Shown: positions 15,212 to 41,320 of the stretch, piece by piece
How positions within the stretch are numbered: position 1 is the first letter of the stretch
Layout of the letters: each line of letters starts with the position of its first letter
Assembly (NCBI GenBank): GCA_958295905.1
Contig: OY282382.1
Coordinates: forward strand, 248,001 to 312,000
Length of the DNA: 64,000 nt
Direction: 5' to 3'
From: an uncultured Vicinamibacterales bacterium
GTDB lineage: Bacteria; Acidobacteriota; Vicinamibacteria; Vicinamibacterales; UBA8438
The notes under the pieces: model-generated
Told to the model about the DNA's origin: nothing
Seen by the model: the letters and a program-made list of their open reading frames with translations, nothing else
Databases searched by the model: none
Translations under genes and position numbers: made by a program

Positions 15212-15544
15212 CAGGACCATCCCGCGCTCCGCCACGGCCGTGCGCAGGCGGAATCGTGGCGGGTCCTGGGGCTTCGGACGTGCGGAATCGTGGGTCTCAC
15301 GCGGCGCCGGCCGGTCGGAAGGCGTTGGCGACCCCTCGAATCGGGGGCGAGCCGTCACGCGCAGTCAGCGTAGCAGGCCGTGGCAGAAGTGGTGCTGCAT
15401 CCGGCCGGGCCGTACTCGGCCCAAGAACGTGTCGTGCAGCCGTCGAAATCGCCGAAATCTGGCCGATCCGAGCCGTTTCCGCGCCACCGCCGGCCGGTTT
15501 TGGCGCACCGCGGAGTTTTGCCACGGGCTGGTAGGATGCTCCCG
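15212..15544 (+). mobile_element. Repeat family 2, copy A (about 172 bp), interrupted by MITE
   Basis: The left end CAGGACCATCCCGCGCT and right end AGCGTAGGATGCTCCCG are imperfect inverted repeats. Homologous copies lie at 25322-25482 (same strand) and 38825-38996 (opposite strand). The 4 bp GTAG plus a 157-bp MITE split the right end; removing them restores the terminus. Flanking 9-bp direct repeats GGCGCTCAC occur at 15203-15211 and 15545-15553, the latter touching the 3' end of the flavin reductase gene. No coding capacity. Confidence 0.75.
15374..15530 (+). mobile_element. MITE copy 1 (157 bp), IS1182-type ends
   Basis: Terminal inverted repeats are CAGGCCGTGGCAGAA at 15374-15388 and TTTTGCCACGGGCTG at 15516-15530 (13 of 15 pair). 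A target duplication GTAG flanks it (15370-15373 and 15531-15534). It is nearly identical to 31217-31374, apart from a one-base indel and a few substitutions. Its right-hand end matches the ends of the IS at 51699-53155. Confidence 0.85.
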
Positions 15545-25321: not shown

Positions 25322-25482
25322 CACAACCATCCCACGCTCCGCCACCGCCGTGCGCAGGCGGAATCGTGGCGGGTCCTGGGGCTCCGGACGGGCGGAATCG
25401 TAGGTTCCCGCGGCGCCGGCCGGTCGGCAAGACGGTGGCGACCCCTCGAATCGGGGCGCGCCGCCAGCGTGGGGTGCCCCTG
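25322..25482 (+). mobile_element. Repeat family 2, copy B (161 bp)
   Basis: It matches copy A over its length (GCAGGCGGAATCGTGGCGGG and the following block), with ends CACAACCATCCCACGCT and AGCGTGGGGTGCCCCTG. It is flanked by a 17-bp direct repeat GGCCGCAGGGCGTCTGC (25305-25321 and 25483-25499), far longer than expected by chance, consistent with insertion and target duplication. No ORF of its own. Confidence 0.75.
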
Positions 25483-38575: not shown

Positions 38576-38784
38576 GGGCCGAGCCGGACCGAGCCGGCCG
38601 AGACCCTCAGTCGTCCAGAGGACCACGCCGAGCGGTGGGCGCGCCTACGCGCTCTCGGGGTCCGATCGCCGTCAAGAGCCGCGCCCGTCCGTCATGCGGC
38701 CGGCGCCCGGGCCGGACCCCACCCGACGGCGCCGCGGCAACCGCCGGCGTCGACCGCGGACCCTTGCCGAATCCTTCCCCGTGT

Positions 38785-39045
38785 CATTGACAATGCGGCA
38801 AGCTCGGCATTACCTATTCCGCGGCAGGGGCATCCCACGCTGACTGCGTGTGACGGCCCGCCACCGATTCGCGGGGCGCCACCGTCTTGACGACCGCCCT
38901 GTGCCGCGTGAGACCCACGATTCCGCACGTCCGGAGCCCCGGGACCCGCCACGATTCCGCCTGCGAACGGCGGTGGCGGAGCGTGGGATGGTCCTGATAT
39001 TCCGCCGCGTGCCATTGCCAAAACGGATCTTGTCATTTACAATGC
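38785..39045 (+). promoter_or_regulatory. Two operator-like palindromes upstream of the HTH-GHKL gene
   Basis: CATTGACAATG (38785-38795) is an inverted repeat CATTG-N-CAATG; CATTTACAATG (39035-39045) is a one-mismatch copy. Both are followed by CGG and preceded by GT, and flank repeat family 2 copy C. The second lies 18 bp before the ATG at 39064, suiting autoregulation by the encoded HTH. Binding is inference. Confidence 0.4.
38825..38996 (-). mobile_element. Repeat family 2, copy C (172 bp)
   Basis: Reverse-oriented homologue of copies A and B. Ends CAGGGGCATCCCACGCT and AGCGTGGGATGGTCCTG form a 17-bp inverted repeat with two mismatches. Flanks show ATTCCGCGG and ATTCCGCCG, an imperfect possible target duplication offset by two bases. 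Confidence 0.7.
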
Positions 39046-39063
39046 GGTCTTCGAAGGTTCGCC

Positions 39064-40149
39064 ATGGGAACAGTCCGTGCCAGGGGCGAAGAAATCCGTC
39101 GCTACATTCTGCGCAACGCACAGGCCAACCCCCGTAATATCAGCAAGTTGGCGGCAAGCAAGTTCGGGGTCAGCCGACAGGCCATCAACGCGCATCTGCG
39201 ACGATTGGTCAATGAGGGCGCTCTACGTCAAGGTGGAAGGACCAGGAATCGCGCGTACGAGCTTGCGCCGGTCCTCGAGTGGAACCGTCTCTACCGGATC
39301 GCGGAACAGCCCGCCGAGGATGTGGTGTGGCGCAACGACGTTGCGGAGATGCTCCGATTGCTCCCCGGCAACGTGCGGGACATCTGGAACTACGGGTTCA
39401 CCGAGATATTCAACAATGCCCTCGACCACTCTCAAGGGAAGACGATCTACACTGCCATCATCAGGACCGCGGTCTCGGCCGAAATGCTGGTCAGGGACGA
39501 CGGCGTCGGCATCTTCCGCAAGCTCAAGAACGAATTGGGATTGCTGGATGAACGGCACGCCATCTTCGAACTGGCGAAGGGCAAGCTGACGACCGACCCG
39601 AGCCGGCACACCGGGGAGGGCCTCTTCTTCGCATCGCGGATGTTCGATGCTTTCGACATCCTGTCCGGCGGAGTCTTCTTTTCCCATGAATTCGAAAAGG
39701 AAGAAGACTGGTTGCTGGAACGGCCCGCAAGCCACCAGGGCACGGCAGTGTTCATGAGGCTCGACAACCATACGTCGCGGACCACGCGGAGGGTCTTCGA
39801 TCGGTTCACCAGCGGCGATGAGCCGACTTTCAGCAAAACCGTGGTGCCCGTCCAGTTGGCCCAATACGGCAACGACAAGCTGATCTCCCGCTCCCAGGCG
39901 AAGCGCGTCCTGGCTCGAGTGGAGGCCTTCACCGACGTGGTCCTCGACTTCAGGAACGTGCCGACCATCGGCCAGGCATTCGCGGATGAGGCGTTCCGCG
40001 TCTTTGCGCGTGAGCACCCGGAGGTGACCGTGACACCGATTAGAGCGAACTCGGAAGTTCGGCGCATGATCTCGCGGGCCAAGGCTCCGCGCGCCGCGGA
40101 CGTGCGCTCTCCCGATCGCTTCGGCGACATGGCGGCCGCCGAGGAATAG
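39064..40149 (+). CDS. HTH - GHKL ATPase - DUF4325 (STAS-like) regulatory protein
   Basis: 361 residues. N-terminal winged-HTH (ISKLAASKFGVSRQAINAHL, about 22-41; LRRLVNEGALRQGG). The central GHKL/HATPase domain shows the N box (FTEIFNNALDHSQG, about 113-126), G1 (VRDDGVGIF) and G2 (TGEGLFFASRMFDAFD). The C-terminal DUF4325-type segment (VVLDFRNVPTIGQAFADEAFRVFA) resembles STAS folds. Kinase-like ATPase plus STAS-like domain in one DNA-binding protein suggests an intramolecular partner switch. Monocistronic; possible autoregulation through upstream palindromes. Confidence 0.85.
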   Translation: MGTVRARGEEIRRYILRNAQANPRNISKLAASKFGVSRQAINAHLRRLVNEGALRQGGRTRNRAYELAPVLEWNRLYRIAEQPAEDVVWRNDVAEMLRLLPGNVRDIWNYGFTEIFNNALDHSQGKTIYTAIIRTAVSAEMLVRDDGVGIFRKLKNELGLLDERHAIFELAKGKLTTDPSRHTGEGLFFASRMFDAFDILSGGVFFSHEFEKEEDWLLERPASHQGTAVFMRLDNHTSRTTRRVFDRFTSGDEPTFSKTVVPVQLAQYGNDKLISRSQAKRVLARVEAFTDVVLDFRNVPTIGQAFADEAFRVFAREHPEVTVTPIRANSEVRRMISRAKAPRAADVRSPDRFGDMAAAEE

Positions 40150-40318
40150 CTTGCGTGACGCGCATCCTCGTTGCATGCTCGTCCGCCGATGAGCCCTCGT
40201 CTCGAAGACGAGCTTGGAGAACGGCGCGTGTGAAGGAGGTCTTGGCGGTTCTTGGCCCCATCCGGCGGGGCTGCCGCCGGGGTCCGAACCGACCCAGTAC
40301 CCGAACCAGGAGATCGAC

Positions 40319-41320
40319 ATGACGAAGAACCACGAGCCGACTCGCCGGCGGTTCCTGCAGAACGCCGGGCTCGCCGGCGGCGGGGTGGTGGGCCACGCTT
40401 TCGCGGCCGGACCCGCGGGGTTGGCGGGCGGTCTCACGGGGGCGGCGGCCCAGACGCCGGCCGGCGCGGGCCCCGGCGCCCGGTTCCGCGCGCTTCTCGA
40501 GCGCCCCGAGCCCAGCCGCTGCATCAACTGCGGCGACGTGGCCACGGCCCGGCTGGCCGAGATGCACGGCTTCGAGGTGGTGATGACGGGGGGCAGCGCA
40601 CTGTCCCTGAGCAAGTACGGCACCGGCGACTTCGGCGTGATCACCATGGACGACCTGGTGGAGTTCTGCAACCGGACCGCCGACACCGTCGACGTGCCGA
40701 TCATCGCCGACGCGGACGACGGCGGCGGCAACCCCCTCAACGTCTACCGCACCGTGCAGCGCCTGGAGAAGGCGGGCGCCGCCTGCATCATGATCGAGGA
40801 CCTGTACGGTGCGAAGCATCTCGCCGGCTATGATGAGGGCAAGATCATCGGCCGCGAGGCCATGGTCGACAAGGTGCGCGCGGCGGCCGACGCGAAGCGC
40901 GACGCCGGCACCGCGCTGCTCGTCCGCAGCGATGTGGTGGCCGACGGCGGCCCCCTCGACGAGGCGATCGAGCGGGTCGCGCTCTACGCGCAGGAAGGCG
41001 GTGACGTCATCTTCATCCCCGGCATCCCCCTGGACCAGTGCCGGCGGGCGGTCGAACGGGCCGGGCGGCCCATTCTGACCGGCGCCCCTTCGCTCGACGC
41101 GGCGCGCGAGAACGGGGTCGGCATTCTGTTCGTCGGCGCGATGGGGGCGATCGCCCTCGGCGCCGTCGACGACGCGATGGCCGCCCTCGCCCGCGACGGG
41201 CGCATCGGCGACGCCGCCGCGGGCAGCCTCGCGGGCCCGCGGCGCCTGGAGCTCATCGGCAACGAGGCCGCCGTCGAGCGCGCGCGGCGGTTCAACGCCC
41301 TCCGCGAGGACGGCCAGTAG
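40319..41320 (+). CDS. Tat-exported isocitrate lyase/PEP mutase-superfamily protein
   Basis: 333 residues from the ATG at 40319. The N-terminus holds a twin-arginine leader (TRRRFLQNAGLAGG, then a long hydrophobic Ala/Gly stretch to about residue 42). The rest is a PEP mutase/ICL TIM barrel: FRALLERPEPSRCINCGD, VMTGGSALSLSKYGTGDFG, PIIADADDGGGN (metal-binding Asp residues), ACIMIEDLYGAKHLAGY, LLVRSDVVADGG. The KKCG/KRCGH motif of isocitrate lyases is absent, which favours a lyase/hydrolase of the oxaloacetate hydrolase or carboxyphosphonoenolpyruvate type. Export of this normally cytoplasmic fold is unusual. Confidence 0.82.
   Translation: MTKNHEPTRRRFLQNAGLAGGGVVGHAFAAGPAGLAGGLTGAAAQTPAGAGPGARFRALLERPEPSRCINCGDVATARLAEMHGFEVVMTGGSALSLSKYGTGDFGVITMDDLVEFCNRTADTVDVPIIADADDGGGNPLNVYRTVQRLEKAGAACIMIEDLYGAKHLAGYDEGKIIGREAMVDKVRAAADAKRDAGTALLVRSDVVADGGPLDEAIERVALYAQEGGDVIFIPGIPLDQCRRAVERAGRPILTGAPSLDAARENGVGILFVGAMGAIALGAVDDAMAALARDGRIGDAAAGSLAGPRRLELIGNEAAVERARRFNALREDGQ

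Follow-up and report, generated by a model that had tools for sequence, protein, structure and literature searches.

The gene at positions 39064-40149 of the window (the whole 64,000-nucleotide stretch of DNA that was analysed) encodes a single chain that joins a winged helix-turn-helix (wHTH), a GHKL ATPase with intact ATP-site motifs and a STAS-like DUF4325 domain from which the phospho-acceptor residue is missing, and it is preceded by an array of direct repeats that overlaps a predicted promoter. We consider it fairly probable that the protein is a solitary autorepressor, gated by a nucleotide or a ligand rather than by canonical phosphotransfer. By analogy, its best reading is that of a protein built like a fusion of CapK and CapS (Chambers et al., EMBO J 2026; PMC13373217; CapS structure, PDB 9Z71).

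Domain organization of the window protein

39064..40149, + strand: single-chain wHTH-GHKL-DUF4325 gene, 361 aa
39070..39264, + strand: winged helix-turn-helix, aa 3-67 (HTH_24, AlphaFold2 model, Z-alpha structure match)
39268..39777, + strand: GHKL ATPase/kinase-like domain, aa 69-238 (HATPase_c_2, SpoIIAB-like fold)
39832..40083, + strand: STAS-like DUF4325 domain, aa 257-340 (PF14213, E 1.1e-14; domain model similar to RsbS, RsfB and SpoIIAA)

The sole start in frame of the 361-aa open reading frame (ORF) is an ATG. Pfam placed the domains in the order HTH, ATPase and DUF4325. PF14213 (DUF4325) matched aa 278-332 with 54.3 bits against a cut-off of 23, and HATPase_c_2 (E 2.4e-5, aa 93-199) and HTH_24 (E 1.8e-4, aa 10-52) lay slightly below their cut-offs. 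These weaker calls are secured by the aligned members of the family, since DUF4325 and HATPase_c_2 were both matched at E <= 0.01 in 34/34 of them.

In the AlphaFold2 model of the full chain, built from a 34-sequence alignment (pLDDT 81, pTM 0.68), a winged HTH is followed by a GHKL fold and then by a beta-alpha domain. The HTH part comprises helices 3-18, 26-34 and 38-50 and wing strands 54-57 and 64-67, and aa 6-68 of the model matched the Z-alpha winged helix 4kmf_A with Z 8.8. The GHKL part matched SpoIIAB best, with Z 14.8 and an rmsd of 2.3-2.8 A across 126-134 residues, and the Z of RsbW was 13.0; an N-box, DxGxG and GxG motifs and a Bergerat fold identify it as a GHKL domain of the SpoIIAB/RsbW type. 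The placement of the domains within the chain is not fixed by the model because of its pTM of 0.68 and its weak stretches at 173-184 and 251-256. Modelled alone, the C-terminal domain adopted a STAS fold (pLDDT 87), with Z 7.2 for each of its two best matches, RsbS and RsfB, and Z 6.9 for SpoIIAA. Every one of its best 30 VIA matches was a STAS domain or a STAS-bearing chain (Z 5.5-7.2), and although these Z values are moderate they are mutually consistent and assign a STAS fold to the modelled domain. A Foldseek search with this model gave no match at E <= 0.001.

The original prediction had proposed an HTH, a GHKL ATPase and a STAS-like DUF4325 domain in one chain, and Pfam, AlphaFold2, the fold matches and the 34 family members all bear this out; the structure prediction that it suggested as a check was run, and the models contain both the HTH and the STAS-like domain.

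Besides the wHTH, GHKL and DUF4325 domains, no effector domain was found in the window protein. It matched the PHROG family phrog_3364, of unknown function, with E 3.4e-9, NCBIfam gave nothing above cut-off, and PADLOC produced four weak matches, of which three fell on the HTH region and one spanned aa 4-88. An RNA feature at the locus was discarded as a candidate, Rfam having given none in 38600-40400. The two genes downstream encode a PEP_mutase and an enoyl reductase according to Pfam, the two upstream ORFs had no Pfam match at 1e-5, and the neighbours give no hint of a function.

Distribution of the family

A single scan of 84,980 species genomes yielded 21 loci with full-length relatives of 37-68% identity, which excludes a chance ORF. 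They belong to Acidobacteriota, Burkholderiaceae, other Pseudomonadota, Thermodesulfobacteriota and a Candidatus phylum. Among 60 genomes around the window's own, matches were present in 5 (own included), one of which is an HTH-only match. In the phylum of the window, PF14213 was found in 21 of 247 genomes with 22 matches, 13 of them in the three-domain chain, so the joined chain is the commonest DUF4325 architecture there. It had been claimed that kinase-like ATPase and STAS protein are usually split between genes and joined here; split GHKL/DUF4325 relatives do exist, but the joined form is no peculiarity of this locus. The survey of the architecture across genomes that accompanied this claim was carried out, and the single-chain form is widespread.

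Two alignments were used. A1 contains 34 chromosomal single-chain proteins (the window protein, L004, L005, L009-L021, L023-L028 and 12 loci from the phylum survey), with L004 and L005 standing in for L008 and L022, which lie on the same contigs. A2 contains 32 proteins, 26 of the 34 in A1 plus six short (split or standalone) ones. The loci L004/L005, L097/L098, L102/L103, L105/L107 and L109/L110 are pairs of near-copies. In a quick tree with long branches the window protein grouped with its two nearest rows from its own phylum, which does not prove transfer.

IMG/VR contigs, viral or prophage, hold 29 further loci, 27 of them full-length. Small terminase genes adjoin the family gene on four of these contigs (L105, L107, L110 and L112), and on another (L092) it lies among tail genes, as judged by eye. 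Carriage by plasmids or named phages was dropped as a possibility, since tblastn against the plasmid and phage collections found no match, although the IMG/VR contigs hold relatives. On one viral contig (L104, 3719-4813) GHKL-DUF4325 is joined to a different HTH with PHROG transcriptional-regulator matches, as if DNA-binding domains had been exchanged; a gene taken by eye for a large terminase is nearby.

The family gene itself aside, the most widely shared neighbour cluster was present at 4/23 chromosomal loci, all Burkholderiaceae, and the most widely shared one on viral contigs at 4/29 loci, beside terminase genes; with such counts a conserved partner gene was discarded. No PADLOC family had more than one match among 61 chromosomal neighbours (61 of the 66 listed, from 18 loci, the window's own neighbours lying outside this set) or among 54 viral-contig neighbours (nearly all from 102 listed), so no recurring defence neighbour was found in these sets.

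The DUF4325 domain and the missing acceptor

A split form of these domains occurs in the phylum of the window, where a short DUF4325 gene lies directly 3' of a GHKL gene at L067, L069, L070 and L074. The gene order at L067 is GHKL, DUF4325 and PIN. At L074 an HTH follows DUF4325, as in CapS, and at L070 the only Pfam call of the first gene is STAS_2, its GHKL motifs being recognized by eye. The DUF4325 proteins of L067 and L069 matched Escherichia VapS (PDB 9Z7O) with E 6.4e-14 and E 6.9e-6, respectively. The A2 STAS-domain profile also found VapS (E 1.2e-9), whereas it was absent at E <= 0.1 from the matches of the A1 profile, made of single-chain members only, so that the link between the window family and VapS runs via PF14213 and the split proteins. 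These profile matches place DUF4325 and VapS in one family. This naming rests on the present analysis, since the word DUF4325 is absent from the main text of the 2026 paper that described VapKSC and CapK/CapS (PMC13373217).

CapS and VapS are switched via phosphorylation of a conserved STAS Ser/Thr, which in CapS is on the second helix (PMC13373217). The corresponding site in the window gene is the following:

39973..39978, + strand: codons of Q304 and A305, which correspond in alignment to the phospho-acceptor segment in VapS and in the split DUF4325 proteins (A2; VapS by profile)

The segment reads G-Q-A-F in the window protein. Neither position holds Ser or Thr in any of the single-chain members (0/34): the residues are Q (28), R (2), L (2), P (1) and N (1) at 304, and A (26), G (7) and P (1) at 305. 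The viral-contig proteins carry QA (16) or QG (13), again with no Ser/Thr (0/29). A Ser occupies one of the two positions in the short or otherwise arranged DUF4325 proteins of L067, L069, L070, L073, L074, L066 and L072, and L002 has Thr-Ser in the acceptor segment with a shift of one residue. The ATP-site residues N118, H122, D145, G147, G149, G184, G186, G226 and T227 are invariant (34/34), and E114 is kept in 33/34, with E114K as the single exception.

Because no Ser/Thr is present at either candidate position in 34/34 members, the single-chain family seems unable to use the known kind of switch by phosphorylation, and a kinase-like domain fused to a pseudo-substrate would be the parsimonious reading. 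S275 and S277, invariant at the start of the DUF4325 domain, could be alternative acceptors.

Other arrangements of DUF4325 were also observed. The window's own genome contains a second, standalone DUF4325 gene with the Thr-Ser acceptor segment (L002, 1243-1779), beside which no GHKL gene was seen in the 3.2-kb locus. At L072 (1441-3147, - strand) an IF2_N-like N-terminus and DUF4325 enclose GHKL-like motifs recognized by eye, and at L066 (461-1725, + strand) GHKL-like motifs and DUF4325 lie in overlapping frames; the Ser of the acceptor segment is kept in both. Two viral-contig genes encode DUF4325 only (L116, 3995-4270, 91 aa; L117, 4010-4261, 83 aa), also without the acceptor Ser. Literature searches under DUF4325 or STAS-like domain-containing returned incidental mentions in tables and lists and no account of the fusion, and nothing was found under combined terms. 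One such mention is a bacterial-like ATPase with DUF4325 among the gene-transfer candidates of the fungus Rhizophagus irregularis (PMC5982333).

Direct repeats in the promoter region

38782..38798, + strand: outer repeat copy TGTCATTGACAATGCGG, cut off from the other copies by an inserted element; contains an 11-bp perfect palindrome
38825..38996, + strand: MITE-like element of 172 bp, inserted in the operator region and parting the outer copy from the other two
39010..39026, + strand: repeat copy TGCCATTGCCAAAACGG, which holds the predicted -35 TTGCCA
39015..39043, + strand: predicted sigma-70-type promoter-like site TTGCCA-17-TACAAT, overlapped by both inner repeats
39031..39047, + strand: repeat copy TGTCATTTACAATGCGG, which holds the predicted -10 TACAAT and lies 21 bp from the copy at 39010-39026

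One promoter was predicted in this region, compared to 0.1 expected from shuffles. In most promoters of homologues 8-11 bases recur at 21-22 bp. The recurrence was measured with a motif-free test, in which 9-base stretches with at least 8 identities were paired between -145 and +45 at each spacing from 10 to 45 bp, for all 34 A1 loci and for the 27 full-length ones among the 29 viral-contig loci. At the 34 loci, pairs numbered 19 at 21 bp, 23 at 22 bp, 14 at 43 bp and 10 at 44 bp, with no more than 3 at any other spacing. A 21/22-bp pair was present at 22/34 chromosomal loci, compared to 1.6 (21 bp) and 0.8 (22 bp) loci for random segments of the same loci and to 19/269 upstream regions of other ORFs there, a control from which 46 ORFs recognised as family members were excluded (one-sided Fisher p 4e-14, overstated since relatedness is ignored). 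The viral-contig loci gave 19/27 (one-sided Fisher p 1e-13 against the same control, overstated for the same reason). The strict test was negative at 12/34 loci, the window among them; diverged repeats or a misplaced start are visible at six of these (window, L004, L005, L056, L057 and L059), and no repeats were seen at L028 and L061.

The letters of the repeat vary by subfamily (GGTTGACAA; GTTTACAAA; GATGTTGC; CTTGACG) and the spacing of 21-22 bp is constant; in some loci the rows reach 3-5 copies. The upstream palindromes of the original prediction are thus only partly recovered, since one of the three window copies (38782-38798) contains the 11-bp palindrome, whereas what recurs across the family is the direct repeat. 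The palindrome was accordingly set aside as the family operator. As TTGACA is the -35 consensus and ACAAT approximates the -10, promoter geometry may supply part of the 21-22 bp signal. An operator in the form of a direct-repeat array is as suggestive of cooperative, head-to-tail binding as of an intramolecular contact, if not more so.

The MITE-like element has inverted ends, with flanking duplications of 9-10 bp at several copies, and the genome of 6.3 Mb has no fewer than 47 strong matches to it, counting the copy in this operator, some of them in tandem; further window copies lie at 15212-15379 and 25326-25482, both on the - strand. If the element is taken out together with a single base and one of the flanking duplications, the outer and middle repeats come to lie, by arithmetic, about 45 bp apart, a distance near two repeat periods. 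At L017 (5620-6010) about 250 bp with an inverted repeat at the end, as seen by eye, separate the repeat array from the gene, and the close relative L018 (5870-6010) is without this segment, which makes it another insertion into the promoter of the family gene, independent of the one in the window.

Search for further targets

The pattern TTGACAA-14/15-TTGACAA had 27 matches in 18 genomes, 23 of them at the family gene itself, and the remaining 4 are comparable to the 3 obtained with a reversed control pattern. In the window's own genome, the 17-mer of the window had 3 exact matches, all at this locus, and 2 two-mismatch matches versus 3 for the control. A regulon of repeat pairs was therefore dropped, matches elsewhere being at background level in both searches. 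These searches see paired repeats, and single unpaired sites elsewhere are invisible to them. Because repeat pairs occur almost only at the gene itself, the window-family protein looks like an autoregulator without another array. The single-chain gene is the sole PF14213 match in 15/18 genomes, and this makes a partner of the DUF4325 kind acting in trans less likely.

Proposed mechanism and alternatives

The closest studied relatives, CapS and CapK, act as an autoregulating repressor and a kinase (PMC13373217). In the mechanism that we propose for the window protein, the winged HTH of each protomer would bind one direct repeat in its own promoter. The repeats lie two DNA turns apart and so would present their protomers on one face of the DNA, over the -35 and -10, and the row of bound protomers would block RNA polymerase, resulting in autorepression. 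The GHKL domain would bind ATP, and the STAS-like domain would dock on a GHKL domain, as SpoIIAA does on SpoIIAB and RsbV on RsbW, holding the row together. A nucleotide state or a stress ligand might then loosen the docking, so that the row disassembles and the gene is derepressed. We infer repression, cooperativity, nucleotide gating, the contacts between domains, the signal and any benefit to the host. A switch by phosphorylation of a STAS serine seems unlikely because the acceptor residue is absent from the aligned proteins.

Docking between neighbours seems more likely than docking within one chain, because direct repeats fit a head-to-tail row. SpoIIAB-type domains usually form symmetric dimers, which would suit inverted better than direct repeats and speaks against a row. 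In its complete form the proposal can be advanced tentatively: a kinase, its substrate and a DNA-binding domain would be fused, the pseudo-substrate STAS domain would dock on the GHKL domain of the next protomer in a head-to-tail chain on two-turn direct repeats, the ATP state would set the stability of this chain, and the protein would control its own gene only and travel alone on chromosomes and prophages.

A contact between DUF4325 and GHKL of the same chain could instead switch the attached HTH in a nucleotide-dependent manner, with no assembly of neighbours. Three domains in one chain, an intact ATP site and GHKL and STAS folds like those of SpoIIAB and SpoIIAA all agree with such a toggle, but a row of up to five direct repeats with two-turn spacing points to contacts between protomers and the placement of domains is not fixed in the model, so that we regard it as possible but doubtful.

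It is unlikely that the gene is a single-gene defence or lysogenic-conversion element, whose protein would itself act as effector once phages attack or DNA is damaged, autoregulation only keeping its level low. The gene is solitary and patchy (5/60 genomes, own included, one HTH-only) and also present at 29 viral or prophage-contig loci, and relatives control or form anti-phage systems (PMC13373217); yet no PADLOC family recurred among the 61 chromosomal or 54 viral-contig neighbours, and an effector domain beyond the three described is absent.

The repeats might also be tandem sigma-70 promoters, the protein working elsewhere, for instance as an anti-sigma-like factor or at single dispersed sites. 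TTGACA is indeed a -35 box, and the last copy often reads TTTACAAT, with TACAAT as -10. We find this quite unlikely, as the repeats are longer than hexamers (AAGGTTGACAA) and stand in rows of 3-5, those of other subfamilies (GATGTTGC, CTTGACG) are not promoter hexamers and are still 21-22 bp apart, and upstream of other ORFs at these loci the spacing is not seen.

A CapK-like kinase that phosphorylates a separate STAS protein in trans, with its own DUF4325 merely structural, would agree with the invariant or nearly invariant catalytic-site motifs, the action of CapK and VapK on separate STAS proteins (PMC13373217) and the second standalone DUF4325 gene with its Thr-Ser acceptor segment in the window genome (L002), but it is decidedly improbable given that 15/18 genomes carrying the gene have no second PF14213 match and the locus has no kinase-substrate gene pair.

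Comparison with known systems

The window protein shares GHKL and STAS-like folds with SpoIIAB-SpoIIAA, RsbW-RsbV and RsbS, which have no HTH. These are separate proteins that act via serine phosphorylation, and SpoIIAB and RsbW act on a sigma factor. In the RsbW/RsbV partner switch kinase and antagonist are on separate chains, whereas they are fused in the window protein. PF14213 and phrog_3364, both matched by the window protein, have no assigned function.

The resemblance is closest to CapK, which combines HTH, STAS and GHKL kinase, and to CapS, with STAS and a winged HTH, which represses its own promoter, but there are several differences (PMC13373217). CapK/CapS are two adjacent genes, HTH-STAS-GHKL and then STAS-wHTH, whereas the window has one gene with the order wHTH-GHKL-STAS. 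The acceptor of CapS is the phospho-serine S54, whereas the window family has no Ser/Thr at 304/305 (0/34; viral contigs 0/29). The CapS operator is palindromic with TTAA half-sites, in contrast to direct repeats 21-22 bp apart. CapK/CapS are mostly located beside immune operons, and no such neighbour recurs for the window family (PADLOC, 61 neighbours, 18 loci). A further trait of the CapK/CapS regulators is that single-stranded DNA activates the kinase.

VapS of VapKSC is of the DUF4325 kind, and at L067 a DUF4325 gene lies between GHKL kinase and PIN genes. In VapKSC kinase, antitoxin and toxin are separate genes and VapS is without an HTH and has kept its Ser/Thr acceptor (PMC13373217; VapS-VapC, PDB 9Z7O); the PIN toxin gene has no counterpart among the two downstream genes and two upstream ORFs at the window locus.

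Work of 2026 showed that bacterial immune operons and a toxin are under the control of GHKL kinases and STAS domains acting by serine phosphorylation (PMC13373217). The window family looks like a single-chain counterpart of such GHKL-STAS regulators, in which the kinase site is kept, the acceptor is lost and a DNA-binding domain is attached. Through this family DUF4325, so far an uncharacterised domain in Pfam, is linked to VapS. The operator of the family would be a regular array in which the letters change between subfamilies and the spacing does not, and the repeats make a DNA-binding test simple. The lost acceptor together with an array conserved in spacing should interest specialists of CapK/CapS and of partner switching, and the family offers a compact one-protein system for asking how a GHKL-STAS contact may work without phosphotransfer.
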